Assembly: GCA_030147925.1 (NCBI GenBank)
Contig: JASBUK010000080.1
Coordinates: 1 to 33,104 of the forward strand
Direction of reading: 5' to 3'
Length of the DNA stretch: 33,104 bases
Source of the DNA: Trueperaceae bacterium
GTDB lineage: Bacteria > Deinococcota > Deinococci > Deinococcales > Trueperaceae
Made by a program: the position numbers and the translations under genes. Shown in pieces: positions 195-32,691 of the stretch. The first letter of the stretch is position 1; each line of letters begins with the position of its first letter. The notes under the pieces were generated by a model. It was given only the letters and a program-made list of their open reading frames with translations, was not told where the DNA came from and ran no database searches.

Positions 195-1967
195 ATGACT
201 TCTTTTACTCCTACTCCGTGGCTTTTAGTGGCATCGCTCATTTCACTGGCACTAAGCCTGCTCATCTGGCGAAAACGTGCTCCAGGGTTGGCTCTGCTGA
301 TGTTTAGCTCGAGCCTGTGGCTGTTTGCTTACGCCTTGGAATTGGGCAGCCTATCTTTATCTGCGGCACTTTTCTGGGCACGTGTGCAGTATTTAGGCAT
401 TGTGCTTTTGCCACTAAGTTGGTTAATATTTGCTACTAAGCAAGCAGACTGGCAAATACCTCGCTGGGGTTGGGCGGTGCTATCTTTATTTCCGTTTGTT
501 ACCCTACTGATAGTTTGGACCAACGGCTGGCATGGCCTTTTTTGGATTAGTGCTGGTTTTGACGGTGAGCGCCTTTCACTTATCTACGGTCCATGGTTTT
601 GGCTTCATACATCCTATTCCTATCTACTGAGCATGTTGGGCTTTACTCTTTTGCTTAAAGCAATCTGGCAAAAACCTCAGCGTTATGAAGGACACGGCTG
701 GGCTTTGACACTGGGACTTTCCTTACCTTTTGTTGCCAATGTTACTTATGTCTTAGGGATAAGTTCTTTTGATTTTTCACCTGGAGCTGCTGCCTTAGGA
801 GCCTTGTTTTTGGCTTGGGGAGTATTTCGGGAGCAACTCTTTGATGTTGTTCCTACAGCTCGTAGTGCGGTATTAAACAGCATGAGTGACGGTGTGCTGG
901 TCACTGATAAAACTGGCAAGATTGTAGATCTTAACCCAGCGGCAGTAAAATTTTTGCTGTGGGACAGAAAGAGAATTTTGGGTCTACAACTCCAAACTGT
1001 TTATGCAAATTGGATCCAAGGATTCGAAACAAGCGAAGAACTAAAAGAAACAAATCAAGTTATTGTAGCTGGAGAACGCTTTTATAGGCTTAAGACAGAA
1101 CCACTGTTGCGAGCAGGGCAGAGGCAAGGTCAGGTTGTGCTGATTCGTGATGTGACCAGCAAAGTTAGAGTAGAGAGTGAACTTAGGCAGGCCAAAGAAG
1201 CAGCCGAAGCGGCCAGCGTTGCCAAAACCGAATTCCTAGCTAGCATGAGCCATGAGCTAAGAACGCCCTTAACGGCAATCATTGGTTTTTCCGAACTGTT
1301 GAGCGCTAAACTTGTCGGCCCGCTTAGTGAAACGCAACTGAGTTATGCTCGGGACATTCAGAGCTCGAGCTGGCATTTGCTGGATTTAATTGACGACATC
1401 TTGAACTATGTGGCCTTAGAGTCAGACAGCGTGGAGCTAAAGCCTACGCAACTCGATATCACAGCGTTGCTAGAGGAGCTTGCCGAGAATATGCGTGCGC
1501 GTATCAGCCAAAATGACAACGTGCTTAAGCTCGGGCTGGAAAAAAACCTGGGCATGCTTTATAGCGACGGCAAAATTTTGCGTTTAGTGCTTCATCATTT
1601 GCTGGATAACGCCGCAAAGTTTACTCAGCGGGGCAAGATTACCCTATCGGCGCAGCGCCTTAAAGGTGATATGGGTGGCCAGGTGGTTTTCCGGGTTACG
1701 GATACCGGGGTAGGCATTGCCCCCGAAAAATTGACTAATATTTTTGCCGCCTTTACCCAGGCTGACGGTTCAAACACCCGCTCCTATGGGGGCAGCGGTT
1801 TGGGCTTGTCGCTTTGCAAACGTTTTAGCCAACTTTTAGGCGGAGAGATTTCGGTGCAGACTGTGCTGGGGCAGGGCTCGAGCTTTACACTGCGCTTGCC
1901 ACTGGCAGCCAGCGCGTCTGTCCCTATCTTAGAGACAGCTACAGGCGTTAATATAGACAACGTTTGA
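195..1967 (+). CDS. Membrane sensor histidine kinase (7TM sensor, PAS, HisKA, HATPase)
   Basis: A 590-residue inner-membrane sensor kinase. The first ~215 residues form about seven hydrophobic helices, matching the HisKA_7TM type of N-terminal sensor. A PAS-like domain follows (about 226-325, with SDGVLVTDKTGKIVDLNPAA), then a short coiled linker rich in Ala/Glu. The dimerisation/phosphoacceptor box is SHELRTPLTAIIGFSELL, with His353 as the predicted phosphorylation site. The ATP-binding domain has an N box (LDNAAKFTQRG), a G1 box (DTGVGIAPE) and a G2 box (GGSGLGLSLC). No response regulator is adjacent, so it is an orphan kinase. No clear Shine-Dalgarno precedes the ATG. A four-codon mini-frame (184-198) overlaps this start as ATGA and could couple translation. 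It probably acts on a regulator encoded elsewhere; the stimulus is unknown. Confidence 0.9.
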   Translation: MTSFTPTPWLLVASLISLALSLLIWRKRAPGLALLMFSSSLWLFAYALELGSLSLSAALFWARVQYLGIVLLPLSWLIFATKQADWQIPRWGWAVLSLFPFVTLLIVWTNGWHGLFWISAGFDGERLSLIYGPWFWLHTSYSYLLSMLGFTLLLKAIWQKPQRYEGHGWALTLGLSLPFVANVTYVLGISSFDFSPGAAALGALFLAWGVFREQLFDVVPTARSAVLNSMSDGVLVTDKTGKIVDLNPAAVKFLLWDRKRILGLQLQTVYANWIQGFETSEELKETNQVIVAGERFYRLKTEPLLRAGQRQGQVVLIRDVTSKVRVESELRQAKEAAEAASVAKTEFLASMSHELRTPLTAIIGFSELLSAKLVGPLSETQLSYARDIQSSSWHLLDLIDDILNYVALESDSVELKPTQLDITALLEELAENMRARISQNDNVLKLGLEKNLGMLYSDGKILRLVLHHLLDNAAKFTQRGKITLSAQRLKGDMGGQVVFRVTDTGVGIAPEKLTNIFAAFTQADGSNTRSYGGSGLGLSLCKRFSQLLGGEISVQTVLGQGSSFTLRLPLAASASVPILETATGVNIDNV

Positions 1968-1971
1968 GGCC

Positions 1972-1991
1972 GTCTTGTTGAGTAACAAGAC
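1972..1991 (+). other. Perfect intergenic hairpin between the kinase and malQ
   Basis: GTCTTGTT (1972-1979) and AACAAGAC (1984-1991) are perfectly complementary around a 4-nt loop, a few bases after the kinase stop codon. No T-run follows, so it is not a standard intrinsic terminator. It could protect or process an mRNA end, or be a protein-binding site. No function is asserted. Confidence 0.45.
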
Positions 1992-3574: not shown

Positions 3575-4797
3575 GTTCTAAACAACACGTCTTCGCGCTT
3601 AAAGCTGCGATAGGCAAAATCTAAAAAAATGGCAGCAAAACCCAAGCTCGAGCCCCAGGTAAGCAAAAGCGGCACGAGCGGGATGCTGCCTTTGACGATT
3701 TCATCCATCAGCAGCATGGTGTTAAGAATCGGTATCAGGTAAATCAGTGAGCTAAAGCTGAAAAAGTCGGCAAATTGCAGGCCTACAATTGGGATAATCA
3801 GAATAAAACTTAACGGCGCCACATAGGTCTGTGCTTCTCTAAAGGAACGGGCGAACATGGTGATGCCAATCAGCAGCGCGGCAATCAAAGCGGCTAAGAG
3901 CAGACTGCTGATGATAAGCAGCAGTATCGATATGAGATCGATGCTAAGAGAACCGCCCAGCAGCGTAACGATTTCGCTGCCTTCATCACCAAGCTGAGCG
4001 CCAAAGAAGCGGCGCATGACAGTTCCGCCCAGAACATAGCCAAGAATAGCCATCAGTGCTGCCGTCAAACCAAAGAGCATAGTGGCCAAAAATTTACCCA
4101 TTACCGCCTCTATACGGCGTACAGGACTGACCAAGAGCACTTCCAGCGTACCCCTCTCCTTTTCGCCAGCTGTAGCGTCGATGGCGGTCATTTGCCCTCC
4201 GGCTAAGGTCCAGATCACGATAAAGAAGGGAATCAACCAGCCAAAAGAACCGCTGGCCCGCTCCGCCGCCGAGCTGGCGTCAACCGCACTGAGCTCTATG
4301 GGCGTAAGCACAGCCACATCGAGTCCGGCGGCTTTAAGCCGCTCGGCGACAATCGTTTGCTGGTAGTCACGCACGGCATTTTCGACCTTGCTGGCAATGA
4401 GCTCGCTGCGCAGATTGCCCCTTTTGCTATAAAGAGTCAAAGTGGCTTTGCCACCACTTTCAAGGGCTTCGGCAAAGCCCGCTTCGATGGCAATAGCTGC
4501 CTGATAGTCACCACTTTCCACCACGCTAAAAGGGTCGGTGACTTCGCTAAAGGCTAGATTTTGCGCCTCAAGCTGCTGGCGCAAATCCGCAGGCAAATTG
4601 ACCAGGCTGACAACGGCAATTTCGCTGATCGTCTGGCTTTCTCGCTCAAAGAGGCCACCTAGAAAGACGGGCAAACCCAGCATGACCAGCGGCAGGATCA
4701 AAAAGGGAATGAGCAGATTGGAAATAATAGCCCGGCGGTCACGCAAAGTAGACAAGATTTCCTTGCGGGTGATATGTAGGATCATTTCCGGCCTCAT
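3571..4797 (-). CDS. ABC-2 type permease, NatB-like
   Basis: A 408-residue membrane component of an ABC exporter. It has one N-terminal membrane helix (about residues 25-50), a long extracytoplasmic segment (about 50-185), then five to six further helices towards the C terminus (for example FGWLIPFFIVIWTLAGG and LLLIISSLLLAALIAALLIG). This topology and the motif GTLEVLLVSPVRR are typical of NatB/CcmB-like ABC-2 permeases, several of which export sodium or other small substrates. The start codon overlaps the ATPase stop as ATGA, so the pair is translationally coupled. The gene is convergent with malQ and the two stop codons overlap. The substrate cannot be read from sequence; Na+ export is only the best-known precedent. 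Confidence 0.88.
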   Translation of the reverse strand: MRPEMILHITRKEILSTLRDRRAIISNLLIPFLILPLVMLGLPVFLGGLFERESQTISEIAVVSLVNLPADLRQQLEAQNLAFSEVTDPFSVVESGDYQAAIAIEAGFAEALESGGKATLTLYSKRGNLRSELIASKVENAVRDYQQTIVAERLKAAGLDVAVLTPIELSAVDASSAAERASGSFGWLIPFFIVIWTLAGGQMTAIDATAGEKERGTLEVLLVSPVRRIEAVMGKFLATMLFGLTAALMAILGYVLGGTVMRRFFGAQLGDEGSEIVTLLGGSLSIDLISILLLIISSLLLAALIAALLIGITMFARSFREAQTYVAPLSFILIIPIVGLQFADFFSFSSLIYLIPILNTMLLMDEIVKGSIPLVPLLLTWGSSLGFAAIFLDFAYRSFKREDVLFRT

Positions 4798-5543
4798 GCG
4801 CTGGCCTCCACAGCAGGAACTAGCCCGGAGCTTTCGACAATAGTAAAGAAAGCCTGTTCGAGATTGCTTGCCTGGGCTTTCCCCAGCAGGGCGCGGGTGC
4901 TGTCTTGGGCAATGATTTTGCCCTGGTAGATGATGGCTGCCCGGTCACATAGCTCCTCGACTTCACCCATGACATGGGTGGAATAGATTACTGCTCTGTC
5001 TTCACTGGGATAATTCTTGACAAAATCCAGCACGGCGCGCCGCGCCATCACATCCAGTCCTGAGGTCGCCTCATCAAAGAAGATGATTGATGGGTCATGC
5101 AAAAGGGCTCGAGCAATAACGATTTTTTGCTTCATGCCCGAAGAAAAACTGCCACAACGTCGCGTTAGCGTGTCACCCAGTTTGAGCAGTTCGTCAAGCT
5201 CAAGAATCCTCTTTTCAATCGCTTGACGCTTCATGCCATAAAGTTTGCCGAAGTAATAGAGAACCTCGCTGCCGCTCAAGCGGTCATAAAGCCCCATGCC
5301 GCCGTTGACCACGCCGATGCTGGTGCGGACTTGCTCGGATTCTTTGTTGATATCAAAACCGTTTACCGTAGCGCTGCCCGCATCGGCTTTGAGCAGCGTG
5401 GCTAAGATGCGCAGCGTGGTGGTTTTGCCAGCCCCATTAGGGCCAAGCAGACCAAAGATTTCTCCTGCCTGCACTGAAAAATTAAGTTTGTCGGCAGCCT
5501 TAACCTTGCCAAAGGCTTTGCTCAAATTACTGACTTCAATCAT
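4794..5543 (-). CDS. ABC transporter ATP-binding protein, NatA-like
   Basis: A 249-residue ATPase that would energise the downstream permease. Walker A is GPNGAGKT (34-41), the ABC signature is FSSGMKQK (133-140), and Walker B with the catalytic Glu is IIFFDEATSGLD (153-164); the switch His lies in YSTHVMGEVEELCDR. The signature FSSGMKQ and the overall sequence fit the ABC-2/NatA class rather than importers. It starts 21 nt after the protease stop and shares an ATGA junction with the permease, giving the order protease-ATPase-permease on one transcript. No strong ribosome-binding site precedes it, which fits coupling to upstream translation. Confidence 0.93.
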   Translation of the reverse strand: MIEVSNLSKAFGKVKAADKLNFSVQAGEIFGLLGPNGAGKTTTLRILATLLKADAGSATVNGFDINKESEQVRTSIGVVNGGMGLYDRLSGSEVLYYFGKLYGMKRQAIEKRILELDELLKLGDTLTRRCGSFSSGMKQKIVIARALLHDPSIIFFDEATSGLDVMARRAVLDFVKNYPSEDRAVIYSTHVMGEVEELCDRAAIIYQGKIIAQDSTRALLGKAQASNLEQAFFTIVESSGLVPAVEASA

Positions 5544-5564: not shown

Positions 5565-7109
5565 TTACTTAATATCCAGCTTATAGCTCCCGATGACGGC
5601 GGGCTCTAAGGTGTTAAACACATCAATATACCAGCGCCCCGCTTGTGGATTGTCTATGACAAACTGCGCACTGTTGGACAGGCTGTTATCGCGGTAGGTC
5701 CAGTCCCCGCCGTTATCCTGATCATTATAGCTGCTGATTTCCGAACCGAATTTAACAGCTAAGTCTAAGTCCATGTCGGCGTTCATGCTGATGGTTATGC
5801 GGGGCGTGCCGCTAGGAACGTCGAGTATATAGGTGTGATAACTAACTGCTTCGCTGATTCCAGCAAGGCTGCCGCTAGCGGATCCACCGATCTGGATGGT
5901 GCCGATGGTGCTGGACGCGGTTGTGTTTGCGACTATGGTGCTTGGAACATTTGTGCCGGTGGCGGTCACTGACACCGTGTAGTTAATGGGTTGCTCGAGC
6001 AAATTCACCACATCTATGTAAATAGTCCCGGCTGAGGGGTTGTTGTAGGTATAGCTGGCGCTAGTGGCGGTGCTGTCATCGAGGTAGTCCACGTCGTTAT
6101 AATCAAGAATTTCCGAACCAGCCTTGACCGCCATATCCACATCACGGCCACCGCCGTCTACGCTGATGGTAAGTTGCTCTAAACCCGCAGGCACCTCGAC
6201 GGTATAGCTGTGAAAGACAAAGGTTTCCTCTCCGGTCTTGTTGGCAATGGCTCCGCTTATGCTGCTGCCAAGGGTAATGGCCCCGTAGCTGCCGCTTGGC
6301 TGAGCCGTGCCAGCGTTAGAAACTGCTGTTCTGTTTACAGGACTGGGGTCAGCTCGAACCACAGTCGGCACATTTGGTCCTATCAGCGCCCAGGCAAGAC
6401 TGATTGGCCTGACATAGAGCTGTTCTTCGTAAAGCTCATCTTCCAAGAGGCTAATCCCGGCAGTCGGTACACCAATTAGTTCGCCGCGTTCATTAAAAGC
6501 CGCACCACCGGAGTTACCCCGGGCAATTTTGGCATCGGTCTTGATCCACTGCTTGCCGCCCGACTCGAAATCTTCACCTACCCAACCGCTCATCAGACCG
6601 GCGGTGAAGGTGATGGTTGAGCCGGAAATACCGGGATAACCAACCACGGTAATAAGGTCGCCGGGCAGCAGGGTGTTGGAGTCTCCCACGGGCATGGCCT
6701 GAAAGCTAAGTGAATCGGGGATAGGGCTTTCATCGGTAAACTGCTCGATTTTTATAATGGCTAAATCAGTGCTGGCATCGCCGTTTATATAACGTGCCCA
6801 ATAACTAAATTGTGGTTCTTGATCCGGGGCTTCGGGACGAGTGATGTAAATCGCCTGCCACTCAAAGTACTGCCGCGTGTCCACATCACCTACGACATGA
6901 AAATTTGTCAGGATGTAACCCTCAGGACTGATGATCGTACCCGAGCCGGACCAGGGCACGAGCTGCCGATTTGTGTCATCCCAGGGGATGATCTGCACGA
7001 CGGATTCAAGAATTTTTGTGCGTACCTCACGTGGTAAACTTTGCGCGAAACTAAGCGCAAAGAATGCCCAAAAGAAGATGAGGCCGCTGGTTAATCTTAT
7101 ATGGCGCAT
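5565..7109 (-). CDS. Secreted trypsin-like serine protease with two PPC domains
   Basis: A 514-residue exported protease. A signal peptide (residues 1-22, ending SFAQ) is followed by a DegP/HtrA-like trypsin fold with a complete triad: His71 in TNFHVVGD, Asp115 in STDLAIIKI, Ser200 in ARGNSGGAAF. No PDZ domain is seen. Instead, residues about 275-385 and 402-514 are two homologous beta-rich repeats carrying VDMAVKAGSEI/LDLAVKFGSEI and YIDVVNLLE/YIDVFNTLE, the pattern of bacterial pre-peptidase C-terminal (PPC) domains, which often assist secretion or substrate binding. A good Shine-Dalgarno (AAGGAG) precedes the ATG, and a TAAAAT box lies about 20 nt further upstream. It heads the cluster with the NatAB-like exporter. 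Whether protease and exporter act together is inference. Confidence 0.9.
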   Translation of the reverse strand: MRHIRLTSGLIFFWAFFALSFAQSLPREVRTKILESVVQIIPWDDTNRQLVPWSGSGTIISPEGYILTNFHVVGDVDTRQYFEWQAIYITRPEAPDQEPQFSYWARYINGDASTDLAIIKIEQFTDESPIPDSLSFQAMPVGDSNTLLPGDLITVVGYPGISGSTITFTAGLMSGWVGEDFESGGKQWIKTDAKIARGNSGGAAFNERGELIGVPTAGISLLEDELYEEQLYVRPISLAWALIGPNVPTVVRADPSPVNRTAVSNAGTAQPSGSYGAITLGSSISGAIANKTGEETFVFHSYTVEVPAGLEQLTISVDGGGRDVDMAVKAGSEILDYNDVDYLDDSTATSASYTYNNPSAGTIYIDVVNLLEQPINYTVSVTATGTNVPSTIVANTTASSTIGTIQIGGSASGSLAGISEAVSYHTYILDVPSGTPRITISMNADMDLDLAVKFGSEISSYNDQDNGGDWTYRDNSLSNSAQFVIDNPQAGRWYIDVFNTLEPAVIGSYKLDIK

Positions 7110-7232: not shown

Positions 7233-8021
7233 ATGTCTGAACATGATACTGCTGTGCTGGAAAGTTACCAATTGCTGCCAAGGCTGCTGCACGATGTACA
7301 TCAGGTCGATAGCAGTTGCCGCTTGCTTAATAGAAATTGCGACGCGCCGATAATCCCGCTGTTAGAAGGATTGCCGGGTAAAACAGGGCTCGAGCTTGGG
7401 GCGCTGAGTCTGGTGGATGCGGCGGCTTTGCTTAATCAGCCGGAAGGCTTTGAGCTAAGCCGGGGCGTGCCTTTGCTAAAAGCCGAGAAAATGGGTCAGC
7501 TTATGCCCAAGTTGCGGCAGTTAGTAGCGCGCGGCGCAGCGGCGTTGGCGCTCGACATGACCGTCTTGGCCGATACGGTGCCTTTTGGCACGCAGGAGTG
7601 GCGGCCTAAAACCCGCGAAGACTTAGCTGAGTTGCGAGCGGCAGCAGGTTGTCCCTTGTGGCTTTACGGTGTTTGCAGCCCTGCCGATGCCGAAGTTGCG
7701 GTAGAAGCCGGCTTAGAGGCTATCGTGGTGCATGCCGGGGCAGGCTATTTTTTAGGCGCTCCCGCCACCATCGAGATATTTCCGGATATTTTTGACGCCG
7801 TGGCCGGTATGATCTCGGTTTATGCGGGCGGACCGGTGCGCAGCGGCATCGATGTCTTTCGCTATCTGGCTATTGGCGCCGAGGCGGTAGTAGTGGAGAG
7901 TGACCGCTCCCTGGCTAACTTGCAGCTCGAGCTGGAATATGCCATGCGTTTAACGGGCTGCGCGACCTTAGCCGATATCAGCTACGAAGCTATTTTTGCG
8001 CCGCTTTTTGGGGAAATCTAA
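7233..8021 (+). CDS. FMN-dependent alpha-hydroxy-acid dehydrogenase-like protein, catalytic residues missing
   Basis: A 262-residue TIM-barrel homologue of lactate/glycolate oxidases, which normally have 350-380 residues. Family landmarks are present: LPRLLHDVHQVD near the N terminus, an altered strand QLVARGAAALALDMTV, GAPATIEIFPDIFDAV (175-190), and GGPVRSGIDVFRYLAIGAEA (199-218), which forms the phosphate-binding end of the barrel. The active site differs. The conserved Lys of LKG is Tyr145 (LYGV), and the NHGGRQ-type catalytic segment reads VHAGAGY (166-172), so the catalytic His and Arg are displaced or lost. About 35 N-terminal residues and part of the middle are also missing. The ATG is chosen from the -10 box 7 nt upstream. 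It may be a flavin-binding protein of changed function; what it does is unknown. Confidence 0.7.
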   Translation: MSEHDTAVLESYQLLPRLLHDVHQVDSSCRLLNRNCDAPIIPLLEGLPGKTGLELGALSLVDAAALLNQPEGFELSRGVPLLKAEKMGQLMPKLRQLVARGAAALALDMTVLADTVPFGTQEWRPKTREDLAELRAAAGCPLWLYGVCSPADAEVAVEAGLEAIVVHAGAGYFLGAPATIEIFPDIFDAVAGMISVYAGGPVRSGIDVFRYLAIGAEAVVVESDRSLANLQLELEYAMRLTGCATLADISYEAIFAPLFGEI

Positions 8022-8096: not shown

Positions 8097-8690
8097 ATGA
8101 TTGCTTTTTTAGATGGCGTTGTCTCGGAAATACGCGAATCCAGTGTGATTATGCAAGCAGGTGCTTTCGGCCTGGAGGTATTTGCGCCCAAATCCACTTT
8201 GGTGGCTTGCAAAGTGGGCACGGCTCTGCGTTTGCACACCCATCTGGTCGTCAAAGAGGAATTGCTGGCGCTTTATGGCTTTCATGACCGGGATATGCAC
8301 ACTCTTTTTAGTTACTTGATTTCTGTTTCGGGAATTGGCCCCAAGCTGGCCTTAGCCATGCTCTCGTCTATGCCCACCACTATCCTGGCCGGGGCGATTT
8401 TGCAAGGTGACAGCGGGCTGCTCGCCAGTGCGCCGGGAGTGGGTAAGAAGACAGCGGAGCGCATTGCGCTCGAGCTGCGCAACAAATTGCCCGAGGAACT
8501 GATGGCGGCCTCTGGCGGGGCACGGCCCACAGCACTTATGTCCCAGGCCGGTGAAGATGCCGTAGAAGCGCTGCTGGCACTGGGCTACCGTGAAACCCAG
8601 GTAAAGTCGCTGATTGCTGAGCTGGCACTTAAAGAACCCGAGGCTACGGCTGAAGCGCTGATTCGCAAGGCGCTATCTAAGCTCCGCTGA
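8097..8690 (+). CDS. ruvA: Holliday junction DNA helicase subunit RuvA
   Basis: A 197-residue cytoplasmic protein that binds four-way junctions as a tetramer and recruits the RuvB motor for branch migration in recombinational repair. Domain I is the OB fold beginning MIAFLDGVV. Domain II carries the two helix-hairpin-helix motifs, SVSGIGPKLALAML (about 76-89) and SAPGVGKKTAERIALELR (about 111-128). Domain III (about 150-197, DAVEALLALGYRE) is the RuvB-contacting UBA-like end. Length is normal. ruvB and ruvC are not in the window. No Shine-Dalgarno is visible before the ATG and no leaderless box fits, so initiation may depend on transcription from the gene 75 nt upstream. Confidence 0.97.
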   Translation: MIAFLDGVVSEIRESSVIMQAGAFGLEVFAPKSTLVACKVGTALRLHTHLVVKEELLALYGFHDRDMHTLFSYLISVSGIGPKLALAMLSSMPTTILAGAILQGDSGLLASAPGVGKKTAERIALELRNKLPEELMAASGGARPTALMSQAGEDAVEALLALGYRETQVKSLIAELALKEPEATAEALIRKALSKLR

Positions 8691-8916: not shown

Positions 8917-10041
8917 TTAGACACCAACTTCATGTGCAAGGGCTTTGTCTGGAGTGATGGTTTCTATATCAAAAGCCTTGCCCACAGCGGCGTAAGTTAG
9001 TTGTCCCTGATGGGTATTCAGACCCTTTAGCAGTGCCGGGTCTTGTTTTAGTGCGCTTATACCCTTATTGGCCAGTTCCAGCGCATAGGGCAGCGTTTGA
9101 TTAGAAAGAGCGGTGGTGCTGGTATTGGGTACGGCGCTGGGCATGTTGGCCACACCATAATGAATGACATCGTCAATAACATAGGTGGGATTGTCGTGAG
9201 TGGTGGGTCTGCTGGTTTCAATGCAGCCGCCCTGATCTACGGCTACGTCTACGATGACGCTGCCGGGTTTCATGATCTTTAGCATGTCTTTGCTGACCAA
9301 GTGCGGGGCTCGAGCCCCGGGTATCAGCACCGCGCCTATCAAGAGGTCAGCCCTAGTTACCATCGTGGCAATATTGGCGGGATTACTGGCCAAGGTCTGG
9401 ATGCGACCTCCAAAAACATCGTCAAGATACTGCAAGCGGCTGTGGCTGACGTCGATAATGGTTACTCGGGCTCCCAGACCCAGAGCAATTTTGGCGGCAT
9501 TGGTGCCTACCACACCTCCACCTAGAACGACCACTTCGCCGGCTTGCACTCCAGGGACACCACCAAGCAAGAGCCCGCGTCCGCCTAAAAATCTCTCTAA
9601 GTGATAAGCGCCCACTTGTGGAGCCATGCGGCCCGCTACTTCACTCATGGGTACTAATAGGGGCAGGCTGCCATTGCTAAGTTGTACTGTTTCGTAAGCG
9701 ATGGCGGTAGTGCCGGATTTAAGTAGCGCTTCGGTCAGTGGCCTGTCTGCTGCCAAATGAAGATAGGTAAAAAGCAAAAGGTCATCACGCAAAAAGCCGT
9801 ATTCTTGGCTAACCGGCTCCTTGACCTTTAGCACCATGTCCTGCGCCCAGGCTTCGGCGGCATTATCAACTATGTTAGCGCCTTGTGCCTCATACTCACT
9901 GTCGCTAAAACCGCTGCCCTCACCTGCAGCACTTTCCACAAAGACCTGGTGGCCGTGCTCAATAAAGGCTCGAGCAATACCGGGGGTGGCAGATACACGG
10001 TACTCATGACGCTTGACTTCCTTGGGGATACCAATATTCAC
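8917..10041 (-). CDS. ald: Alanine dehydrogenase
   Basis: A 374-residue NAD-dependent enzyme that interconverts L-alanine with pyruvate and ammonia. The N terminus MNIGIPKEVKRHEYRV is characteristic. Catalytic Lys74 (KVKEP) and His95 (FTYLHLAADR) are in place, and the Rossmann motif VVLGGGVVGTNAAKIALGLG binds NAD. The length equals that of characterised homo-hexameric enzymes (about 371). The start is GTG, supported by a Shine-Dalgarno AAGGAG about 8 nt upstream. A possible promoter (TTGACC at 10080-10085 and TATTCA at 10058-10063, both on the minus strand, 16 nt apart) lies just upstream, but it would leave a very short leader. It is transcribed alone. Confidence 0.97.
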   Translation of the reverse strand: MNIGIPKEVKRHEYRVSATPGIARAFIEHGHQVFVESAAGEGSGFSDSEYEAQGANIVDNAAEAWAQDMVLKVKEPVSQEYGFLRDDLLLFTYLHLAADRPLTEALLKSGTTAIAYETVQLSNGSLPLLVPMSEVAGRMAPQVGAYHLERFLGGRGLLLGGVPGVQAGEVVVLGGGVVGTNAAKIALGLGARVTIIDVSHSRLQYLDDVFGGRIQTLASNPANIATMVTRADLLIGAVLIPGARAPHLVSKDMLKIMKPGSVIVDVAVDQGGCIETSRPTTHDNPTYVIDDVIHYGVANMPSAVPNTSTTALSNQTLPYALELANKGISALKQDPALLKGLNTHQGQLTYAAVGKAFDIETITPDKALAHEVGV

Positions 10042-13188: not shown

Positions 13189-13390
13189 AAACTCACACTA
13201 ATTTCCTTTGTCTATCAATTATGGGCTCGAGCATAAGGCAAACACCGCAACTATAGCAGCTGGGACGACTAAATGAGACAACCGTCTCTAAGCGAAAAGC
13301 TCTGAAATGCTTATGTGAACATTCTAGAATCGTGACGTTTTGACCCAAACTCTGCCATAAAGCCAGTGATATCAAGGGCGCTCCGAAAGG

Positions 13391-19892: not shown

Positions 19893-20564
19893 ATGAAAGA
19901 CAGACAGCAGATAGTCATTGTCGAAGATGATGTGGATATTGGCAAGCTGCTCAAGCTCGAGCTCGAAGACGCGGGTTTTGCGGTTACGCATTGCGATAGC
20001 GGCATTCGGGGTCTTTCGGCCATTCGTGAACAAAACCCCGACCTAGTGGTGCTTGATTTAGGCCTACCCGACTTAGGCGGTGCCGAGATTGCCCGGCGAC
20101 TGCGTCAGACCAGTGAAATACCCATAATCATCCTAACGGCGGCGGATGATGTGGCCACCAAAGTAGAGATGCTTAATTCCGGAGCGGATGATTATTTGGC
20201 CAAACCTTTTCACACTGAAGAATTACTGGCACGTATTGGCGTGCAATTGCGACACCGCAGTACCGGTTTAGTGCAAACCATCGGTGCGTTAACACTCGAT
20301 GCAGCGCGGCGGCAAATCTTCTGGGAAGAGCAGGAGGTAAGGCTCTCGCCGCGAGAGTTTGATTTGCTGGTCTATCTTTGTCATCAGCCCGGTAGGGTAT
20401 ACAGTCGCCAAGAGATCGAAAAGAATGTCTGGGGTGAGGATTTGCCCCCTTCGAGCAATGTCGTTGATGTTCACATTGCCAATATACGCGGCAAATTACG
20501 AGATGCCGGTGGTTTTGGACTAATCCGCACCGTACGGGGTGTTGGCTATGCTATCAAAAGCTGA
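19893..20564 (+). CDS. OmpR/PhoB-type response regulator
   Basis: A 223-residue DNA-binding regulator. The receiver domain has the acidic pocket VEDDVD (9-14), phospho-acceptor Asp55 in VVLDLGLPD, the conserved Thr in ILTAADD, and Lys of YLAKPF. A winged-helix effector follows (about residues 130-223: VRLSPREFDLLVYLCHQPGR, DVHIANIRGKLRDAG, IRTVRGVGYAI). The ATG at 19893 is preceded by AGGTGA and gives the standard N terminus; an upstream frame extension adds residues with no family support. It lies between the small protein and its cognate sensor kinase (35 nt gap). Confidence 0.95.
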   Translation: MKDRQQIVIVEDDVDIGKLLKLELEDAGFAVTHCDSGIRGLSAIREQNPDLVVLDLGLPDLGGAEIARRLRQTSEIPIIILTAADDVATKVEMLNSGADDYLAKPFHTEELLARIGVQLRHRSTGLVQTIGALTLDAARRQIFWEEQEVRLSPREFDLLVYLCHQPGRVYSRQEIEKNVWGEDLPPSSNVVDVHIANIRGKLRDAGGFGLIRTVRGVGYAIKS

Positions 20565-22223: not shown

Positions 22224-22772
22224 TCAAAGCTTTGGCAAGGTAACGCCGCGCTGACCCTGATACTTACCTTGACGGTCGGCATAGCTTAGTTCGGGGGCGT
22301 CTCCCTGGAAAAAGAGTAGTTGGACGATGCCCTCATTGGCATAGACCTTGGCGGGCAAAGGCGTGGTATTGGAGAGCTCGAGCGTCACATGGCCTTCCCA
22401 GCCAGGCTCTAAGGGCGTGACATTGGCCACGATACCGCAGCGGGCATAACTGGACTTGCCCAGCGCCACCACCATGACATCATTAGGGATGCGCAGATAT
22501 TCCACCGAACGCGTTAATACAAAGGAGTTTGGCGGGATGATGCAGGATTCCCCGTCTGTCTCAACCAGACTGTTGGTGTCAAAGTGTTTGGGGTCAACCA
22601 CCGTGTTAAAGGCATTGACAAATATGCGCCACTCCGGCGCAGCGCGTAAGTCATAGCCAAAACTGGAGAGGCCGTAAGAGATTACGCCTTCGCGCACGAG
22701 ACGGTCTTCGAAGGGGTCTATCATGCCCTTTTGGGCCTGTTGGCGAATCCACCAATCTGGTCTGATGCTCAT
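22224..22772 (-). CDS. dcd: dCTP deaminase
   Basis: A 182-residue enzyme that deaminates dCTP to dUTP (or, in bifunctional members, on to dUMP), feeding thymidylate synthesis. The start [16 protein letters not shown] matches the family N terminus; a 13-residue upstream extension is rejected. [10 protein letters not shown] (105-114) supplies the Ser/Arg residues of the active site, and TLELSN contains catalytic Glu132. The C-terminal [12 protein letters not shown] binds the phosphates. TAAACT lies exactly 7 nt before the chosen ATG, so the mRNA is probably leaderless. Divergent from coaX with 59 nt between starts. Confidence 0.96.
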
Positions 22773-22831: not shown

Positions 22832-23602
22832 ATGCTCTTAGCTGTTGATGTTGGTAATACCAGCACTGTTTTGGGTCTTTATGATGGCAAGTCTTTGTGT
22901 GCCCATTGGCGTGTGGCTACCGATCGCCTGCGCATGGCCGACGAGTATGCGGTTTTGCTTAAAAATCTGCTCGAGCTCGATGGTCTTATGGTGCCGGACA
23001 GGGCAATTATTTCCAGTGTGGTGCCGCCGGTTGAGCGCGAATTGTCCGCCGCCCTAAAACGCTTCTGGCAACTTGATAGCCTGCTGGTTAACAGCAATTT
23101 TCTGACCAAGCTGCTGTCAATCGAGACTGATAATCCCAAAGAAGTTGGTGCCGATCGTCTTGTCAATACGGTGGCGGCCCTAGAGTACGATGCTCAGGCC
23201 TTTGTAGTAATTGATTTTGGCACTGCTACCAATTTTGATCTGGTGCTAAAACCCAATCGTCTGCTGGGGGTGGCGTTGGCACCCGGCCCGATGGTAGCTG
23301 CCGATGCTCTTTTTGCTCGAGCCGCCAAATTGCCCCGGGTGGACTTGGTCGCACCGGAATTCGCCGTAGGGAAAAATACCGTTACCGCCTTGCAATCAGG
23401 GCTGGTTTTTGGCTATGCCAGCATGGTGGACGGCATGGTGGCACGCTTTACGCGTGAGATTGACCCCGCCTTGGGCAAACCCTATGTCATTGCCACCGGG
23501 GGTTTTGCCACCGTGCTGGAAGGACTCTGTGAAAGCGTCGATCTTTATGAGCCGCTGCTGACTCTAAACGGTTTGCAGATTATTGCCGAGCAACTTGGTT
23601 GA
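22832..23602 (+). CDS. coaX: Type III pantothenate kinase
   Basis: A 256-residue enzyme that phosphorylates pantothenate, the first step of coenzyme A synthesis. It belongs to the ASKHA fold. The phosphate-binding motif DVGNTSTVLGLYDG (6-19) opens the protein, GADRLVN (106-112) and DFGTATNFD (128-136) carry the pantothenate and metal-binding residues, and ATGGFATVLE near the C terminus is the adenosine motif. Length and start are typical. No Shine-Dalgarno is present; the TATACT box 7 nt upstream indicates a leaderless mRNA. Confidence 0.97.
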   Translation: MLLAVDVGNTSTVLGLYDGKSLCAHWRVATDRLRMADEYAVLLKNLLELDGLMVPDRAIISSVVPPVERELSAALKRFWQLDSLLVNSNFLTKLLSIETDNPKEVGADRLVNTVAALEYDAQAFVVIDFGTATNFDLVLKPNRLLGVALAPGPMVAADALFARAAKLPRVDLVAPEFAVGKNTVTALQSGLVFGYASMVDGMVARFTREIDPALGKPYVIATGGFATVLEGLCESVDLYEPLLTLNGLQIIAEQLG

Positions 23603-24620: not shown

Positions 24621-26246
24621 TTAAACCAGACGTCCACGCAACCAGGAGGAAGCAAAATCGATGATGTTGACGACGATGATAATGGCGATAATGGCGATGA
24701 TCATCTGATTGTACTGACCGCTGGCCATCTTCTCTTGAATAAAAAAGCCGATACCACCCGCACCTACCAGCCCCAGTACGATAGACACGCGAAAATTGAT
24801 TTCGAAGCGATAGAGCGTCCAACCTACAAAGAGCGGCATGACCTGCGGCAAGATGGCCCAGCGCACTACGTTGCTACCCGACGCCCCGACGGCTTCGAGG
24901 GCTTCGATAGGCCCCTGGTCAACGTTTTCAATTGATTCAGAATAAACCTTACCCAGGTCGGCAATAGAGTGAATAGCCATAGCCATGACGCCTGCAAGTG
25001 GACCCAGACCGACGGCGGCAACAAAGATGAGGGCCAAAATCAGGGTGTCAATGCCACGGTCAATGTTGAAAAATCCCCGGGTTAGACCGAATACGGTACG
25101 CATAAAGGCATTCCCCTGAGTTAAGTTGCGCGAGGCGAAAAAAGACATCGGTATGGCAAAGATTGCCGCCAAGAAAGTGCCCACCAGTGCGATCTCAAGG
25201 GTAATGAGCATTTGGCTGGCCACCTCTTGCAGAGGAAAACGTGAGAATTCGGGTTGAGACAGCAGCGGTGGCCAAGCCCGGTCCAAAAAATCTAAGAAAA
25301 AGGGCCAGCCTTCAACTAAGCGGGTGATGCTGAAATCGGTGGCTGAAAATGCCGGTGTGAGTACCAGGATAACGGCGGTAAACAAGCCTCCCGATATCAG
25401 GTCATTGGAATCTTCGAGATTAGGTCTCCACAGTTGCATAAGACCTGCACCAAGCATGAGCCCGGCTAGCAAGAAGAAGATGCCGGTGCCATATTTTCTG
25501 CTGGCTGGATTGATCAGCCGGAAACCTTCTTCGGCGGCTGCGCGTGGAATTTTTTGGCCTTCCAGCCCGGTGATTGAGCTGATGGGCTCGAGCTGTGTCA
25601 GCCCGATTCTGGCACGCTGCCTATTGAGTTCGTCCAAGCCCTGGTTATAAGCTTCGACCAGACGCTCCTCACTGCCCTGTGGTGCATTTATAAAGACCTT
25701 GTAGTAGCCCTGCGCATTGGGAAAATAGCGGTAACCCACTGGAGAATTGAGCCACCAGAAAACCAAGCCGCCTATGACTATGGCGGCAGCCGAAAGCGGC
25801 AATCTTAGTTTGGGGCGTCCCCAGACCAGCAAGATGATAACGGCCACGAAGCTCAAGCTGCTAACGGCCTCCATTAAGCCGTTTAGCGGACGAACTTGAG
25901 CCAGATAAGGCGACCTGGCCAGCCAGCTAAAGCCGACAATCAACGCTAAGCTACCGCCAAGCACCCCAGCCAGACCACTCATGCGACGGCCCAGATGCGC
26001 CCCGACCAGCCCCAGCACAGAGGCCAGTGGAATGAGAATCAGGATAGGGAAAGTAGGCAAGACGCCAAAGAGAGTAGGGGAAATGGTCTCACGGCTCAAA
26101 AAACCCAACGCCTCACTAAAGGGAAAAGCGACAAATATGAGCGACAGGGCCAAACTGCCCGCCACCACAAAGCGGCGCATTGAACCATTGGCCAAACCAC
26201 TTAGCAGAGCGCTTAACAGCCCTAGGGCAATATAGAACCACAGCAT
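24621..26246 (-). CDS. phnE: Phosphonate-type ABC transporter permease, N-terminally extended
   Basis: A 541-residue inner-membrane permease. The C-terminal ~220 residues are a PhnE permease domain: MLITLEIALVGTFLAAIFAI, then the ATPase-contacting loop EALEAVGASGSNVVRWAILP (448-467), then FRVSIVLGLVGAGGIGFFIQ. PhnE is usually about 250-280 residues; here about 270 extra residues precede it, with five or six membrane helices (1-165), a soluble segment (about 170-250, YYKVFINAPQGSEERLVEAY) and further helices (255-300). Its start overlaps the phnC stop as TAATG. Substrate could be phosphonate, phosphite or another oxyanion; no C-P lyase genes are near. Confidence 0.9.
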   Translation of the reverse strand: MLWFYIALGLLSALLSGLANGSMRRFVVAGSLALSLIFVAFPFSEALGFLSRETISPTLFGVLPTFPILILIPLASVLGLVGAHLGRRMSGLAGVLGGSLALIVGFSWLARSPYLAQVRPLNGLMEAVSSLSFVAVIILLVWGRPKLRLPLSAAAIVIGGLVFWWLNSPVGYRYFPNAQGYYKVFINAPQGSEERLVEAYNQGLDELNRQRARIGLTQLEPISSITGLEGQKIPRAAAEEGFRLINPASRKYGTGIFFLLAGLMLGAGLMQLWRPNLEDSNDLISGGLFTAVILVLTPAFSATDFSITRLVEGWPFFLDFLDRAWPPLLSQPEFSRFPLQEVASQMLITLEIALVGTFLAAIFAIPMSFFASRNLTQGNAFMRTVFGLTRGFFNIDRGIDTLILALIFVAAVGLGPLAGVMAMAIHSIADLGKVYSESIENVDQGPIEALEAVGASGSNVVRWAILPQVMPLFVGWTLYRFEINFRVSIVLGLVGAGGIGFFIQEKMASGQYNQMIIAIIAIIIVVNIIDFASSWLRGRLV

Positions 26247-27449: not shown

Positions 27450-27469
27450 AAAAAGTTACGATAAACGCC

Positions 27470-28606: not shown

Positions 28607-30346
28607 ATGAGCTTAAACAAAAAACAACTGGCCGCCCAGCTAAAAGAGGTGGCGAATTTGCTCGAGCTTCTTGGTGAAGATGCCTTTAGAGCCAGGGCGT
28701 TTATGACTGCGGCCAGAAACATTGAAAATTTTGAAGGAGATGTTGCTCAACTACTGCAAGAAGATCGCCTAAGCGAAATAAAGGGCATTGGTTCAGGTTT
28801 AGCAGCAGAGTTAGCAGCGCTAAAGACCCAGGAAAGTTTACCGCTGTTAGAAGAACTTAAGGGGCGAGTACCCGAAGGGGTGCGCAGCCTCTTTATGGTT
28901 TCGGGCTTGGGGGCAAAAAAGATTGCCGCTCTTTGGCAAAGTGGCATTGTCAGCTTAGAAGATTTAGTGGCAGCTGCCCAAGCGGGTCGCATTGCCAGCA
29001 TGAAGGGCTTTGGCAAAAAGAGTGCCGAAAATATCTTGGTGGCGGCTCAGTTTGCGCTTAATGCCAGAAAACGCATGCATCTTAATGTGGCGCTTAAAAT
29101 AGCCCAGCTTGTTATCGAGGCAATAACCCAGGCCCTACCACAGGCTCGAGCCGAGATTGCAGGCAGTTTGCGCCGTGGCCTAGAAACCATTGGTGACATC
29201 AACCTGCTGATAACCGGGGTAAAAGCACCACAGGTCGCTAAGGCGCTGGAAAATATAGTGCAAGTTAAAGATTTAAGCGAAAGTCAGCTGACCGTGCTTT
29301 TGGACGGGCGCACAGTCCAAATTATTATTAGCAGCGAGGCAGCATTTGGCGCTTCTTTGGCGTTTTATACAGGTAATTATGAATATCGCCGGATGCTCTT
29401 AGAGCGTGCTGCCGAACTGGGCTATGAACTGCGCGAAGACGGTCTTTTTCAAGCTGATAAACTAACTGAAACAAAGTCGGAAGTCGATCTTTTCGAGAAG
29501 CTAAAGCTGCCCTTTATTCAAGCCGAACGCCGCGAGCAGCGGCAGCCTAAGCCAACGGCCCAAGTCATTACGCTGGCTGATATGCACGGCCTGGTGCACA
29601 ACCACTCCAGTTGGTCCGATGCGGTTAACAGCATCCGTGAGATGGTATCAGCGGCTCGAGCCAAGGGCTATAACTATCTGGCGATGGCGGATCACTCGCA
29701 AAGCTCTTACTACGCTAACGGCCTTAGCGCCGAACGGGTTTTTGCACAAGCTAAAGAAATTGCCGAAATTCGCCGTGAACTTGCTGACGAAGGCAGTGAT
29801 TTTGGCCTCTTACACGGCATCGAAGTAGATATCATGACCGACGGCAGCCTTGACTATCCCGATGAAGTTTTGGCTGTTCTGGACTACACCGTGGTGAGCG
29901 TACATCAGAACTTCAGTTTGAGCGAGAGCAAGCAAACCGCACGCATCATCCGTGCAGTGCAGAATCCTTATGCCGGCATCCTGGGTCATGCTACTGGGCG
30001 CTTGCTCTTGCGTCGGCCTGGCTATCAGCTTGATTTGCAGGCGGTAATCGAAGCCTGTGCCGAATCAAACACCGTAATCGAGATAAATGCCCACCCTTAC
30101 CGCCTCGATCTTGACTGGCGCTGGGTGATAAAAGCCCGGGAACTGGGCTGCAAATTTTCCATAAACCCCGATGCTCATCATATTGATGGTTTTGATGACT
30201 TGCGCTACGGGGTGATAGTAGCCCGCAAGGCAGGTTTAAGCAAGGTGGATGTAGTTAATACTGCGCCGACAGCAGAGCAGTTTTTGCGCCAGCTTAAAAG
30301 TTCCTCGCTTAAGTCGCCTGCAAAAGCGACTCAAGCAGAGAGTTAA
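28607..30346 (+). CDS. polX: PolX-PHP protein with degenerate polymerase active site
   Basis: A 579-residue family X DNA polymerase with C-terminal PHP phosphoesterase, a bacterial base-excision/gap-repair protein. The N terminus has helix-hairpin-helix motifs (LSEIKGIGSGLAAELAALK; FMVSGLGAKKIAALW; SMKGFGKKSAENIL). The polymerase palm has GSLRRGLETIGDINLLI: the first metal ligand Asp197 is kept, but the usual second Asp is Asn199, and the third (normally in QVDLR) is Ile240 in VQIII. Polymerisation is therefore expected to be lost. The PHP domain looks intact: HNHSSWSD with His331 and His333, MADHSQSS, EVDIM, SVHQNF, GHATGR, INAHPYRLD, NPDAHH. It should retain Mn-dependent 3'-5' exonuclease or phosphodiesterase activity. 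Start set by a TAGAAT box 7 nt upstream. Confidence 0.92.
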   Translation: MSLNKKQLAAQLKEVANLLELLGEDAFRARAFMTAARNIENFEGDVAQLLQEDRLSEIKGIGSGLAAELAALKTQESLPLLEELKGRVPEGVRSLFMVSGLGAKKIAALWQSGIVSLEDLVAAAQAGRIASMKGFGKKSAENILVAAQFALNARKRMHLNVALKIAQLVIEAITQALPQARAEIAGSLRRGLETIGDINLLITGVKAPQVAKALENIVQVKDLSESQLTVLLDGRTVQIIISSEAAFGASLAFYTGNYEYRRMLLERAAELGYELREDGLFQADKLTETKSEVDLFEKLKLPFIQAERREQRQPKPTAQVITLADMHGLVHNHSSWSDAVNSIREMVSAARAKGYNYLAMADHSQSSYYANGLSAERVFAQAKEIAEIRRELADEGSDFGLLHGIEVDIMTDGSLDYPDEVLAVLDYTVVSVHQNFSLSESKQTARIIRAVQNPYAGILGHATGRLLLRRPGYQLDLQAVIEACAESNTVIEINAHPYRLDLDWRWVIKARELGCKFSINPDAHHIDGFDDLRYGVIVARKAGLSKVDVVNTAPTAEQFLRQLKSSSLKSPAKATQAES

Positions 30347-30416: not shown

Positions 30417-30716
30417 CTAAATATAGACTTTTGAGCTACCGCTATGACCGCCGATGTCGATAATGTCCAGCACATAGCCCTGTTTTACTGTGTGGTCATA
30501 GTCCCAGATGATACGAATGTCGTTTGTGACCGAAGAGCTAAAAGCCGGCATACCCGTGCTGTCAAAGACTTTATGATTATGACTGCGAAGTTTAGGCGAA
30601 CGCGGGTCTAGGCTCAATAGCTCGAGCGTTTGGTCAATTTTCTTTCTGAGTGAGGCTTGTTTTTGATATTTGCGATACTTGCGGAGAAACTTTGGCCTGA
30701 AGCTAAGGCTGTACAT
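30417..30716 (-). CDS. RelE/YafQ-like toxin
   Basis: A 99-residue type II toxin of the RelE/ParE superfamily, which typically cleave ribosome-bound mRNA. A basic N-terminal helix region (FRPKFLRKYRKYQKQASLRK) is followed by the beta-sheet core ending FSSSVTNDIRIIWDYDHTV and DIIDIGGHSGSSKVYI, the C-terminal pattern of the mRNA-interferase subgroup. It begins 3 nt after the stop of the upstream antitoxin-like frame (TAG GGC ATG), giving antitoxin-toxin order. It carries one GCTCGAGC octamer, so it has been resident long enough to share the genome's signature. Confidence 0.82.
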   Translation of the reverse strand: MYSLSFRPKFLRKYRKYQKQASLRKKIDQTLELLSLDPRSPKLRSHNHKVFDSTGMPAFSSSVTNDIRIIWDYDHTVKQGYVLDIIDIGGHSGSSKVYI

Positions 30717-30719
30717 GCC

Positions 30720-31013
30720 CTATGACTTGCTGTTGTTTTTGAGTTCTTCGAGACTCATTATGATACCGGGTTCCCGGCGTGCCTCCTTGATGGAGGTTTG
30801 CTCTTTTTCACTCAATTCCATGACAGGCAGCGACTTTTCCCAGGCCAGCCAACGCATATGTTCTTCTTCAAACATAGCCTGTTTGTGCCTCCGGTGATAG
30901 TCAGAGAGGGCAAGCTTTAGTATCTCCGGATAATCAAGAGCCGGATAATCGTTTTTTAAGTCCTTGAGTAGTGCCTCGACGTCTTCATTGACCGTAAGTC
31001 TTATGGTTGCTAT
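30720..31013 (-). CDS. Putative ribbon-helix-helix antitoxin without a canonical start codon
   Basis: On the minus strand an open frame from 31022 to the TAG at 30720-30722 translates as IATIRLTVNEDVEALLKDL... followed by DYPEILKLALSDYHRRH, a ribbon-helix-helix DNA-binding pattern, then an acidic tail ending MSLEELKNNSKS. Position and size fit the partner of the RelE-like toxin. No ATG, GTG or TTG lies between the in-frame stop (31023-31025) and the conserved N terminus. The codon where Met is expected (31013-31011) is ATA. An ATG at 31023-31021 is one base out of frame. Either ATA is used, the gene has lost its start, or a base is wrong. About 97 residues; first residue uncertain. Confidence 0.6.
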   Translation of the reverse strand: MATIRLTVNEDVEALLKDLKNDYPALDYPEILKLALSDYHRRHKQAMFEEEHMRWLAWEKSLPVMELSEKEQTSIKEARREPGIIMSLEELKNNSKS

Positions 31014-31047
31014 ATAAGGCCATTATTGTCTTTTCGTGCTCAAAGTG

Positions 31048-32691
31048 TCAAAACAGACCGGTAATCCTTCCTTCATCATCTATATCCACAGTTTCGGCGG
31101 CAGGCTGTTTGGGCAAACCGGGCATGGTCATGATCTCACCCATATATGCCACCACAAAACCGGCACCGCATTTGGGTTTAATGTCGGTTACCGTGACACT
31201 GAAGTCAGTCGGACGGTTGCGCAGCTTGGGTTTATCCGAAAGACTCGCAGCCGTCTTGGCAATCACCACCGGCAATTGCTCACAAGCTTCGCGCTCGAGC
31301 TGCTTTAGGGCGCGTTTGGCCGTCTGATTATAGTTGACTTTTGCCGCGCCGTAGACCTGTTTGGCGATTCGTTCGATTTTCTCACTAATGGGCAAATCAA
31401 GTTCATACAGAGGCTTAAAGTCTTGTGCTTCGTCTAAAGCTCCCAGCACGGCTTCGGCCAGCTCGAGCCCGCCCTCACCACCGTGGCCATGCACTTCGCT
31501 TAAGGCAAAACGCAAACCCTGCGAGACCGCAAAATCAGCCACGTGCTGAATCTCTTGCTCGCTGTCGCTGGCAAAACGGTTTAAGGTAATTACCGGACTT
31601 AGGCCGTGCAATCTAACGTTTTCAACGTGTTTGGCCAGATTTTCTAAGCCTGCGTAGACGGCTTCCGGGTTGACGTTTTGATAGTCTTTGGCGCCGCCAT
31701 GATAGCGCAATGCCCGAATAGTCGCCACTAACACCACTGCCTCGGGTTTGAAGTCTGCTTGACGCGTTACCACGTTAAAGAACTTCTCGGCGCCCAAATC
31801 CGAGCCAAAACCGGCCTCGGTCACCACATAATCGGCGTAGCCCAGCGCCATCTTGGTAGCCATGATCGAATTGGTGCCGTGGGCGATGTTGCCAAAAGGC
31901 CCCATGTGTACAAAGGCCGCCTGACCTTCTAAGGTCTGCACCAGATTGGGCTCGAGCGCTCTGCTTAACAGCGCCGTCATAGCTCCGTGCACCTTAATAT
32001 CGCAGGCATAGATAGGCTTTTTGTCATAGTTGTGACCAATGCGAATATTGCCAAGCCGTGCCCTTAAGTCTGTCAGGTCAGTGGCTAGAGCCATTATCGC
32101 CATGACTTCACTAGCCACCGTGATCTCAAAGCCTGATTCCCGGGGGACGCCATGCGCCTTGCCGCCCAAACCCAGCACGATATGCCGCAGGGCACGATCA
32201 TTGATGTCCACAACGCGCTTGATATCTATGGTTCGCGGATCAATACCCAAGTTATTGCCTTGTTGCAGGTGGTTGTCAATCATGGCGGACAGCAGATTCA
32301 CTGCTGAACTTACCGCATGGAAGTCACCGGTAAAGTGCAAATTAATGTCATCCATTGGGATTAGCTGAGCATAACCACCGCCGGTTGCGCCGCCTTTAAT
32401 GCCAAATACCGGGCCTAAAGATGGTTCACGCAAGGCTGCTACCGCCTGTTTGCCCAATTTGCCAAGCGCCTGAGTCAGGCCGATGGAAATAGTCGTTTTG
32501 CCTTCGCCAGCTGGAGTTGGGGTGATGGCGGTGACCAGTATCAGCCTACCTCGGCTAGTTGGCGCTGCGCCCTGCACCTTGGCCATATAAGGCCCGTAGT
32601 GATAGAGCTTATCAGGTGGTATGCCGATGCTCTGGGCAATTTGTTTAATAGGACGAGGTCTGCTTTGATGCGCTATTAAAATGTCGTTCAT
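31048..32691 (-). CDS. fhs: Formate--tetrahydrofolate ligase
   Basis: A 547-residue enzyme that makes 10-formyl-tetrahydrofolate from formate, ATP and tetrahydrofolate, in one-carbon metabolism. The P-loop-like ATP site is TPTPAGEGKTT (57-67), followed by the family's ALREPSLGPVFGIKGGATGG and DINLHFTGDFHA. LNRFASDSEQEI and the C-terminal GEIMTMPGLPKQPAA are also typical. Length is close to the usual 556. No Shine-Dalgarno is apparent; a TAGACT box ends 5 nt before the ATG, shorter than the 7-nt spacing elsewhere. The antitoxin-like frame begins 34 nt downstream, so the toxin pair may be partly read from the fhs transcript. Confidence 0.96.
   Translation of the reverse strand: MNDILIAHQSRPRPIKQIAQSIGIPPDKLYHYGPYMAKVQGAAPTSRGRLILVTAITPTPAGEGKTTISIGLTQALGKLGKQAVAALREPSLGPVFGIKGGATGGGYAQLIPMDDINLHFTGDFHAVSSAVNLLSAMIDNHLQQGNNLGIDPRTIDIKRVVDINDRALRHIVLGLGGKAHGVPRESGFEITVASEVMAIMALATDLTDLRARLGNIRIGHNYDKKPIYACDIKVHGAMTALLSRALEPNLVQTLEGQAAFVHMGPFGNIAHGTNSIMATKMALGYADYVVTEAGFGSDLGAEKFFNVVTRQADFKPEAVVLVATIRALRYHGGAKDYQNVNPEAVYAGLENLAKHVENVRLHGLSPVITLNRFASDSEQEIQHVADFAVSQGLRFALSEVHGHGGEGGLELAEAVLGALDEAQDFKPLYELDLPISEKIERIAKQVYGAAKVNYNQTAKRALKQLEREACEQLPVVIAKTAASLSDKPKLRNRPTDFSVTVTDIKPKCGAGFVVAYMGEIMTMPGLPKQPAAETVDIDDEGRITGLF

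Follow-up and report, generated by a model that had tools for sequence, protein, structure and literature searches.

Why should one eight-base palindrome recur about once per kilobase along a bacterial contig? The question is raised by a stretch of 33,104 nt (the window: positions 1 to 33,104 of contig JASBUK010000080.1, assembly GCA_030147925.1, from a Trueperaceae bacterium of the phylum Deinococcota), in which the octamer GCTCGAGC, an extended form of CTCGAG, is strikingly frequent. An earlier note on this sequence had reported about 37 exact copies, some 70 times chance, and CTCGAG nearly always extended to the octamer. Our counts agree: the window holds exactly 37 copies, the first at position 307 and the last at 31950-31957, which is a 68-fold excess over the zero-order expectation of 0.54, and 37 of its 40 CTCGAG hexamers carry the G...C flanks that complete the octamer. 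Each other palindromic octamer occurs at most six times in the window.

The abundance extends to the whole source genome (G000; 2,982,247 bases in 151 contigs), which contains 2,625 copies of GCTCGAGC (one per 1,136 bases; 880 per Mb) versus 136 copies of the reversed-letter control CGAGCTCG. A 358-kb sample of this genome, composed of 20 stretches (L022-L041) and the window, held 324 copies against 10.8 expected under a second-order (trinucleotide) Markov model, a 30-fold excess, and of the octamers with 40 or more occurrences, counted on both strands, GCTCGAGC ranked first by the third-order ratio. The 66 of 390 CTCGAG hexamers in the sample that lie outside the octamer are fewer than the 77 modelled for all CTCGAG, so the excess of the hexamer resides in the octamer. 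The ratio of observed to expected copies, proposed in the earlier note as a check, is thus not near one, and the iteration of GCTCGAGC in this Trueperaceae genome is confirmed as real.

Could a preference for certain codons, codon pairs or amino acids, with Leu-Glu written as CTC GAG, suffice for this abundance? This was addressed in 307 kb of predicted coding sequence of the source genome, with the longest open reading frames taken as genes and synonymous codons shuffled within each gene. Most of the octamers in these coding sequences (203 of 293) are in the phase xxG CTC GAG Cxx, as such a preference would have it, and the shuffles account for the octamer counts in two Trueperaceae (G004 and G015) that lack M1, the candidate methylase introduced below. 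The octamer exceeded the shuffles only 1.1-1.6-fold in these two genomes, so the test does not itself generate enrichment. In the source genome, however, the three phases held 59, 31 and 203 copies versus 2.8, 2.7 and 7.2 after shuffling (12.7 in total; 23-fold excess) and 6.0, 3.9 and 14.0 when codon-junction dinucleotides were also kept (23.9 in total; 12-fold excess). The other two phases are up 8- to 21-fold, and octamer density in the sample was 0.61 per kb in noncoding and 0.95 per kb in coding DNA. Enrichment in all three phases and in noncoding DNA, which bears out the all-frame occurrence reported earlier, rejects codon preference as a full explanation; that it should suffice is extremely unlikely.

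GCTCGAGC is therefore a highly iterated palindrome (HIP) of the class known from HIP1 (GCGATCGC) of cyanobacteria, as the earlier note had proposed; its genome-wide occurrence, palindromic form, presence in all frames and HIP1-like density support this. The sections of Elhai 2015 (PMC4390886) on which we draw give a density of about 500-2500 per Mb for the class, and 880 per Mb falls within this range. The octamer is palindromic, GC-rich and by far the most overrepresented one (by its count in the genome and its ranking in the window and the 358-kb sample), codon usage does not explain it, and HIP1 is absent where it dominates, with no copy in the 358-kb sample; for the methylase associated with the class, M1 is a candidate by association. 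Both HIP1 and GCTCGAGC are found about once per kb in coding and noncoding DNA, both have GC ends around a self-complementary core, and for both, near misses peak at the outer position (PMC4390886, same sections). They differ in their core (TCGA in GCTCGAGC, GATC in HIP1), in their hosts (Deinococcota versus cyanobacteria) and in their enzymes, which are an adenine-class orphan candidate in the source genome and, in those sections, GATC plus CGATCG enzymes for HIP1. The same part of that paper describes alternate HIPs in some cyanobacteria (GGGATCCC, TCGATCGA, GGCGCC, rCCGGy and GCsGC), for which a methylase able to act on the palindrome is reported. These resemble GCTCGAGC in being the dominant palindrome of genomes with little or no HIP1; as described there, they are sporadic, each in one or a few cyanobacterial genomes, whereas CTCGAG iteration spans many genera of Deinococcota and one member of the Myxococcota. 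We found no description of iterated GCTCGAGC or CTCGAG in the open-access literature, searched by title and start of the abstract with subscription journals mostly uncovered, which agrees with the earlier statement that no counterpart had been described; of the papers containing these letters, those listed were off topic by their titles and probably carry them in primers. Selection on HIP1 is reportedly the subject of a 2018 study by Xu, Lawrence and Durand.

The sites are also distributed more evenly than expected. In the sample of the source genome the octamer is under-dispersed, with a variance-to-mean ratio of 0.45 (5-kb bins, n = 65) that was reached or undercut in none of 500 simulations and by none of 251 control k-mers. 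The ratio was 0.44 without the window, and 0.36 and 0.53 in two halves of the sample. Pairs of sites 100-200 bp apart occurred at 0.42 of expectation. Near misses at the outer position of the octamer were in excess, with 51 seen versus 28 (second-order model) or 34 (third-order model) expected.

A search of the source genome with methylase profiles returned no match to PF00145 or PF01555 and one match each to PF07669 and PF02384, both in the same gene, M1 (PF02086 was not searched genome-wide). M1 encodes 558 amino acids on contig C57, outside the window, and is located between dnaG and the V-ATPase operon. No recognised restriction gene adjoins it; the scanned neighbours are housekeeping genes, and one open reading frame of 123 amino acids was left unscanned. 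The protein carries Eco57I/N6_Mtase domains and an NPPF motif, and orthologues that match it over all or nearly all of its length (38-53% identical) are present in nine of 39 Trueperaceae, the source genome included, and in 14 of the 18 genomes of genus g25, presumably Meiothermus. A structure model of the orthologue from Truepera MAG86 (52% identical to M1; predicted local distance difference test score, pLDDT, 89) resembled CamA (Z 24.4, 483 aligned residues, root-mean-square deviation 3.8), M.TaqI (Z 23.9, 379 aligned, 3.8) and M.BseCI (Z 23.4, 479 aligned, 3.9), all three of which are N6-adenine enzymes of the shared gamma-class fold, at 16-19% identity in the aligned rows. A profile of 28 M1 relatives likewise matched these three (M.BseCI at E 5e-21); L219, whose match contains stops, was left out of the folded alignment. 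TaqI and BseCI have the sites TCGA and ATCGAT, respectively. Its domains, its motif and this modelled fold place M1 among the gamma-class N6-adenine methyltransferases, as an orphan whose specificity would be for CTCGAG.

This class assignment bears on the model that Elhai 2015 (PMC4390886, in the sections used here) offers for HIP1, according to which a mismatch repair that depends on G-methylC keeps GC-creating mutations beside methylated cytosine, with the octamer as a by-product; the model as given there requires methylcytosine. With 880 copies per Mb and more near misses than expected at its outer position (51 versus 28 or 34), the octamer resembles HIP1 as those sections describe it; it also has GC ends like HIP1, and even spacing fits the saturation idea of the model, of which a methyladenine version is conceivable. 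However, neither PF00145 nor PF01555 yields a methylase in the source genome, so that a PF00145 partner was rejected. That the M1 family is of the N6-adenine class also argues against a need for methylcytosine, unless the genome encodes some further cytosine methylase. We consider such a ratchet a decidedly unlikely explanation of the octamer.

How widely the palindrome is iterated was surveyed in 111 Deinococcota genomes, with GAGCTC as the control for CTCGAG; family f1 of this survey is Trueperaceae and includes the source genome. Many genera, but not all, were enriched in CTCGAG or GCTCGAGC. In genus g20, which we take to be Thermus, none of the 27 genomes had more than 33 octamers. At the other extreme, the four genomes of family f5 (G040, G044, G048 and G052) contained 26,619-28,178 CTCGAG versus 4-15 GAGCTC, and in genus g24 of family f2 the counts were 21,868 versus 25 (G045) and 14,690 versus 2 in 1.9 Mb (G049). 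These six genomes have roughly one CTCGAG per 130-170 bases and 2-25 GAGCTC each. The Markov sample for G045, in which three of four stretches were N, was left out. Samples showed that the flanks of CTCGAG vary by lineage, being G..C in the source genome and some other Trueperaceae, C..G in G041 and weakly constrained in f5. In the samples from G040 and G052 we also observed that GGCC was nearly absent (2 versus 173 and 5 versus 207 expected). Among the complete genomes surveyed, we take G012 to be Truepera radiovictrix, G056 Meiothermus ruber and G038 Marinithermus. CTCGAG iteration with lineage-specific flanks in many, though not all, Deinococcota genera is a new observation.

The enrichment is statistically associated with M1 or with a second enzyme, M2, across lineages. 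M2 is an XhoI-associated methylase distantly similar to M1. Its gene is intact in G012, a genome that carries both M1 and M2, and there adjoins a decayed gene for a PF04555 XhoI-family nuclease with in-frame stops and a split frame (C1:1093829-1096226; L126, L295). The four g25 genomes that lack M1 have an M2 that is 48-53% identical to that of G012, and by full-length matches each of the 18 genomes of the genus has exactly one of the two enzymes, M1 in 14 and M2 in four, a complementarity with a chance probability of 1/3060 under random assignment with relatedness ignored; all 18 have ratios of octamer to control of at least 3.6. Within the Trueperaceae, the median ratio was 10.6 in the carriers of M1 or M2 (10 of 39) and 0.91 in the 29 others (Mann-Whitney p = 1.6e-5), and a test at genus level gave p = 0.0056 (8 versus 9 genera), neither value being corrected for kinship. 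The genomes treated as non-carriers include G002 and G023, whose M1-like enzymes are distant (27-31% identical). An orphan methyltransferase, one of the causes suggested in the earlier note, is thus supported as far as association goes.

XhoI and PaeR7I cleave at CTCGAG, and the neighbourhood of M2 in G012 recalls a system of this type. The sites might then be a relic of restriction-modification, protected by a methylase and persisting after loss of the nuclease, for which the decayed nuclease gene beside M2 and open, apparently intact XhoI-family genes in three genomes of family f3 (G050, G061 and G062) can be cited. Restriction should lower CTCGAG, however, and these three genomes have 1390-1947 copies compared with 3640-4718 in their congeners G042, G046 and G059, about half or less. 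Moreover, the source genome has no PF04555 match, no gene beside its M1 is recognisable as a nuclease, and protection alone would not give a 30-fold rise, so we judge a relic of this kind very unlikely. A beta-class methylase, M3, adjoins the XhoI-family gene in G050 and has homologues in the stretches examined of G061 and G062. As a predictor of the palindrome M3 was rejected, since five genomes from genera that lack clear enrichment also encode enzymes 61-65% identical to it; the M1 query in this comparison was a gapped alignment row.

Relatives of M1 outside the Deinococcota offered a further comparison. We kept 80 loci, analysed the neighbours in 53 of them (four Deinococcota included) and counted CTCGAG in 24 genomes from outside the phylum. 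A large neighbour of one family (the one scanned was an Eco57I-type IIG enzyme) was present at 20 of the 53 loci, a small nuclease-like neighbour, A2, at 19, and a third neighbour family (the one scanned was PLD-type) at seven. The remaining seven loci lack these recurrent partners and comprise the four Deinococcota, the Myxococcota locus L216, L236, where a match to a type II restriction enzyme lies directly downstream of the methylase, and L246, whose adjoining gene of 262 amino acids had no match in Pfam or PADLOC and whose genome is not among the 24. In 22 of these 24, the methylase has one or other of two recurrent partners, one genome is that of L236, and the Myxococcota genome shows no visible partner near its methylase. 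CTCGAG is abundant in this last genome (18,912 versus 162 GAGCTC); in the other 23 the ratio of the two hexamers was 0.2-4.5. A tree of M1 relatives grouped the Deinococcota with the Myxococcota and three sequences that have partners, in a single clade with poor resolution. Viral contigs contributed 17 loci with relatives at most 35% identical.

The A2 family itself (L214, L215, L220, L221, L225 and others) comprises small proteins that are PD-(D/E)xK-like by inspection and have no Pfam match. A2 was rejected as an XhoI enzyme, with no PF04555 match in the 17 proteins scanned, and sequence searches of the Protein Data Bank gave no match for one A2 protein or for the A2 profile. Two A2 proteins weakly match a PADLOC model of type II restriction enzymes (E 0.0025 and 0.0076), and the family probably represents little-described restriction enzymes.

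Taken together, we think it fairly probable that the orphan enzyme M1 methylates CTCGAG, that the marks are used and evenly distributed, and that isolated new sites are retained. M1 would methylate both strands of the CTCGAG core at its adenine, and the methylated sites would serve the cell as evenly distributed marks, most plausibly by guiding repair or chromosome maintenance through their hemimethylated state after replication. A site newly created by mutation would be kept where its nearest neighbour is more than a few hundred bases away, and under this proposal retention of isolated sites would lead to their accumulation to about one per kb. We infer from the above data that the sites are methylated, that causation runs from enzyme to palindrome and that the mark has a use. 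A wider form, in which orphan CTCGAG adenine methylases drive evenly spaced sites across the Deinococcota, M1 and M2 replace each other with the palindrome kept, and the same arose independently in the Myxococcota, we hold more tentatively, at somewhat less than an even chance.

Several observations weigh against these readings. Even spacing is demonstrated in one genome, that of the window; G017 and G042 lean toward it but are too small for a verdict, the spacing in G047 is close to Poisson, and CTCGAG tends to cluster in f5 and G041. A depletion of near misses at the methylatable T/A position (26 versus 53) was discarded as support, being equalled by 42 of 223 control positions. The orthologue comparison suggested in the earlier note found 3 of 43 alignable sites kept in other genera (41 gene pairs), too few for a conclusion; even spacing combined with rare positional conservation would point to selection on density and not on individual sites. 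On the side of the enzymes, G010 counts as a carrier solely through a 377-amino-acid M2 fragment at a contig end, four Trueperaceae M1 carriers have modest ratios of octamer to control (1.29-2.4), and G008 is a strong exception with neither enzyme detected and 1592 octamers versus 41 controls (ratio 39). Enrichment without detected M1 or M2 was also seen in G067 and G068 (genus g29), all four f5 genomes, G041, G045 and G049 of f2, and genera g19 and g23 of f3; in such genomes different enzymes may be at work, or the enrichment may arise in another way. In the Myxococcota, the contig stops roughly 570 bases beyond the match to the methylase, and a partner gene could therefore have escaped notice. 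Finally, avoidance of CTCGAG where M1 relatives have a nuclease-like partner was not clear, and these genomes therefore lend no support to the specificity.

Some of these points would suit a different explanation, in which the octamer is the binding site of a protein for chromosome organisation, segregation or recombination and the methylase link is secondary or coincidental. Both even spacing and enrichment in genomes lacking M1 and M2 would fit such a site. However, it would not account for the links to M1 and M2 in Trueperaceae and Meiothermus, nor for the independent occurrence in the Myxococcota, and we regard it as rather unlikely.

In the window, the exact matches to GCTCGAGC are located at 307..314, 1363..1370, 1876..1883, 3646..3653, 5107..5114, 5993..6000, 7388..7395, 7925..7932, 8468..8475, 9308..9315, 9968..9975, 12477..12484, 12764..12771, 12777..12784, 13225..13232, 14294..14301, 15109..15116, 16218..16225, 17410..17417, 18846..18853, 19657..19664, 19955..19962, 20709..20716, 20977..20984, 21053..21060, 21496..21503, 22376..22383, 22969..22976, 23315..23322, 25586..25593, 28660..28667, 29144..29151, 29654..29661, 30620..30627, 31293..31300, 31461..31468 and 31950..31957. 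Two gene groups are poor in sites. The segment 10410-12178 encodes a NotI-family nuclease (PF12183) and a D12-class methylase (PF02086) and holds no octamer versus 1.98 expected (P = 0.14); the phn genes at 24621-28360, which encode a phosphonate-type ABC transporter (permease PF00528, the rest by inspection), hold one versus 4.18 expected (P = 0.08). The deficits noted earlier are numerically true and not significant, and the suggestion that octamer density may date gene acquisition is not borne out by this window. CGGCCG is strongly avoided in the sample of the source genome (15 seen versus 204 expected), so the probable target of the NotI-type cassette is CGGCCG, alone or within a longer site, and the cassette probably is, or once was, active. 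Also in the sample is TACTTTCC, a pyrimidine-rich motif that is not palindromic and that frequently takes the form TTTTTACTTTCCAC (43 copies, 7.2-fold over a third-order Markov model).

The role and origin of HIP1 are still open, as Elhai 2015 (PMC4390886, in the sections used) gives a model and not a test. A HIP in a second phylum brings to this question a candidate enzyme of different chemistry, a natural replacement of one enzyme by another, genera with and without the palindrome, and apparently cultured carriers, and so supplies independent replicates and a testable organism for a puzzle known mainly from cyanobacteria. If the wider form of the proposal is true, iterated palindromes would arise generally from an orphan methylase together with a distance-dependent need for its mark, and would be neither a cyanobacterial peculiarity nor tied to methylcytosine.

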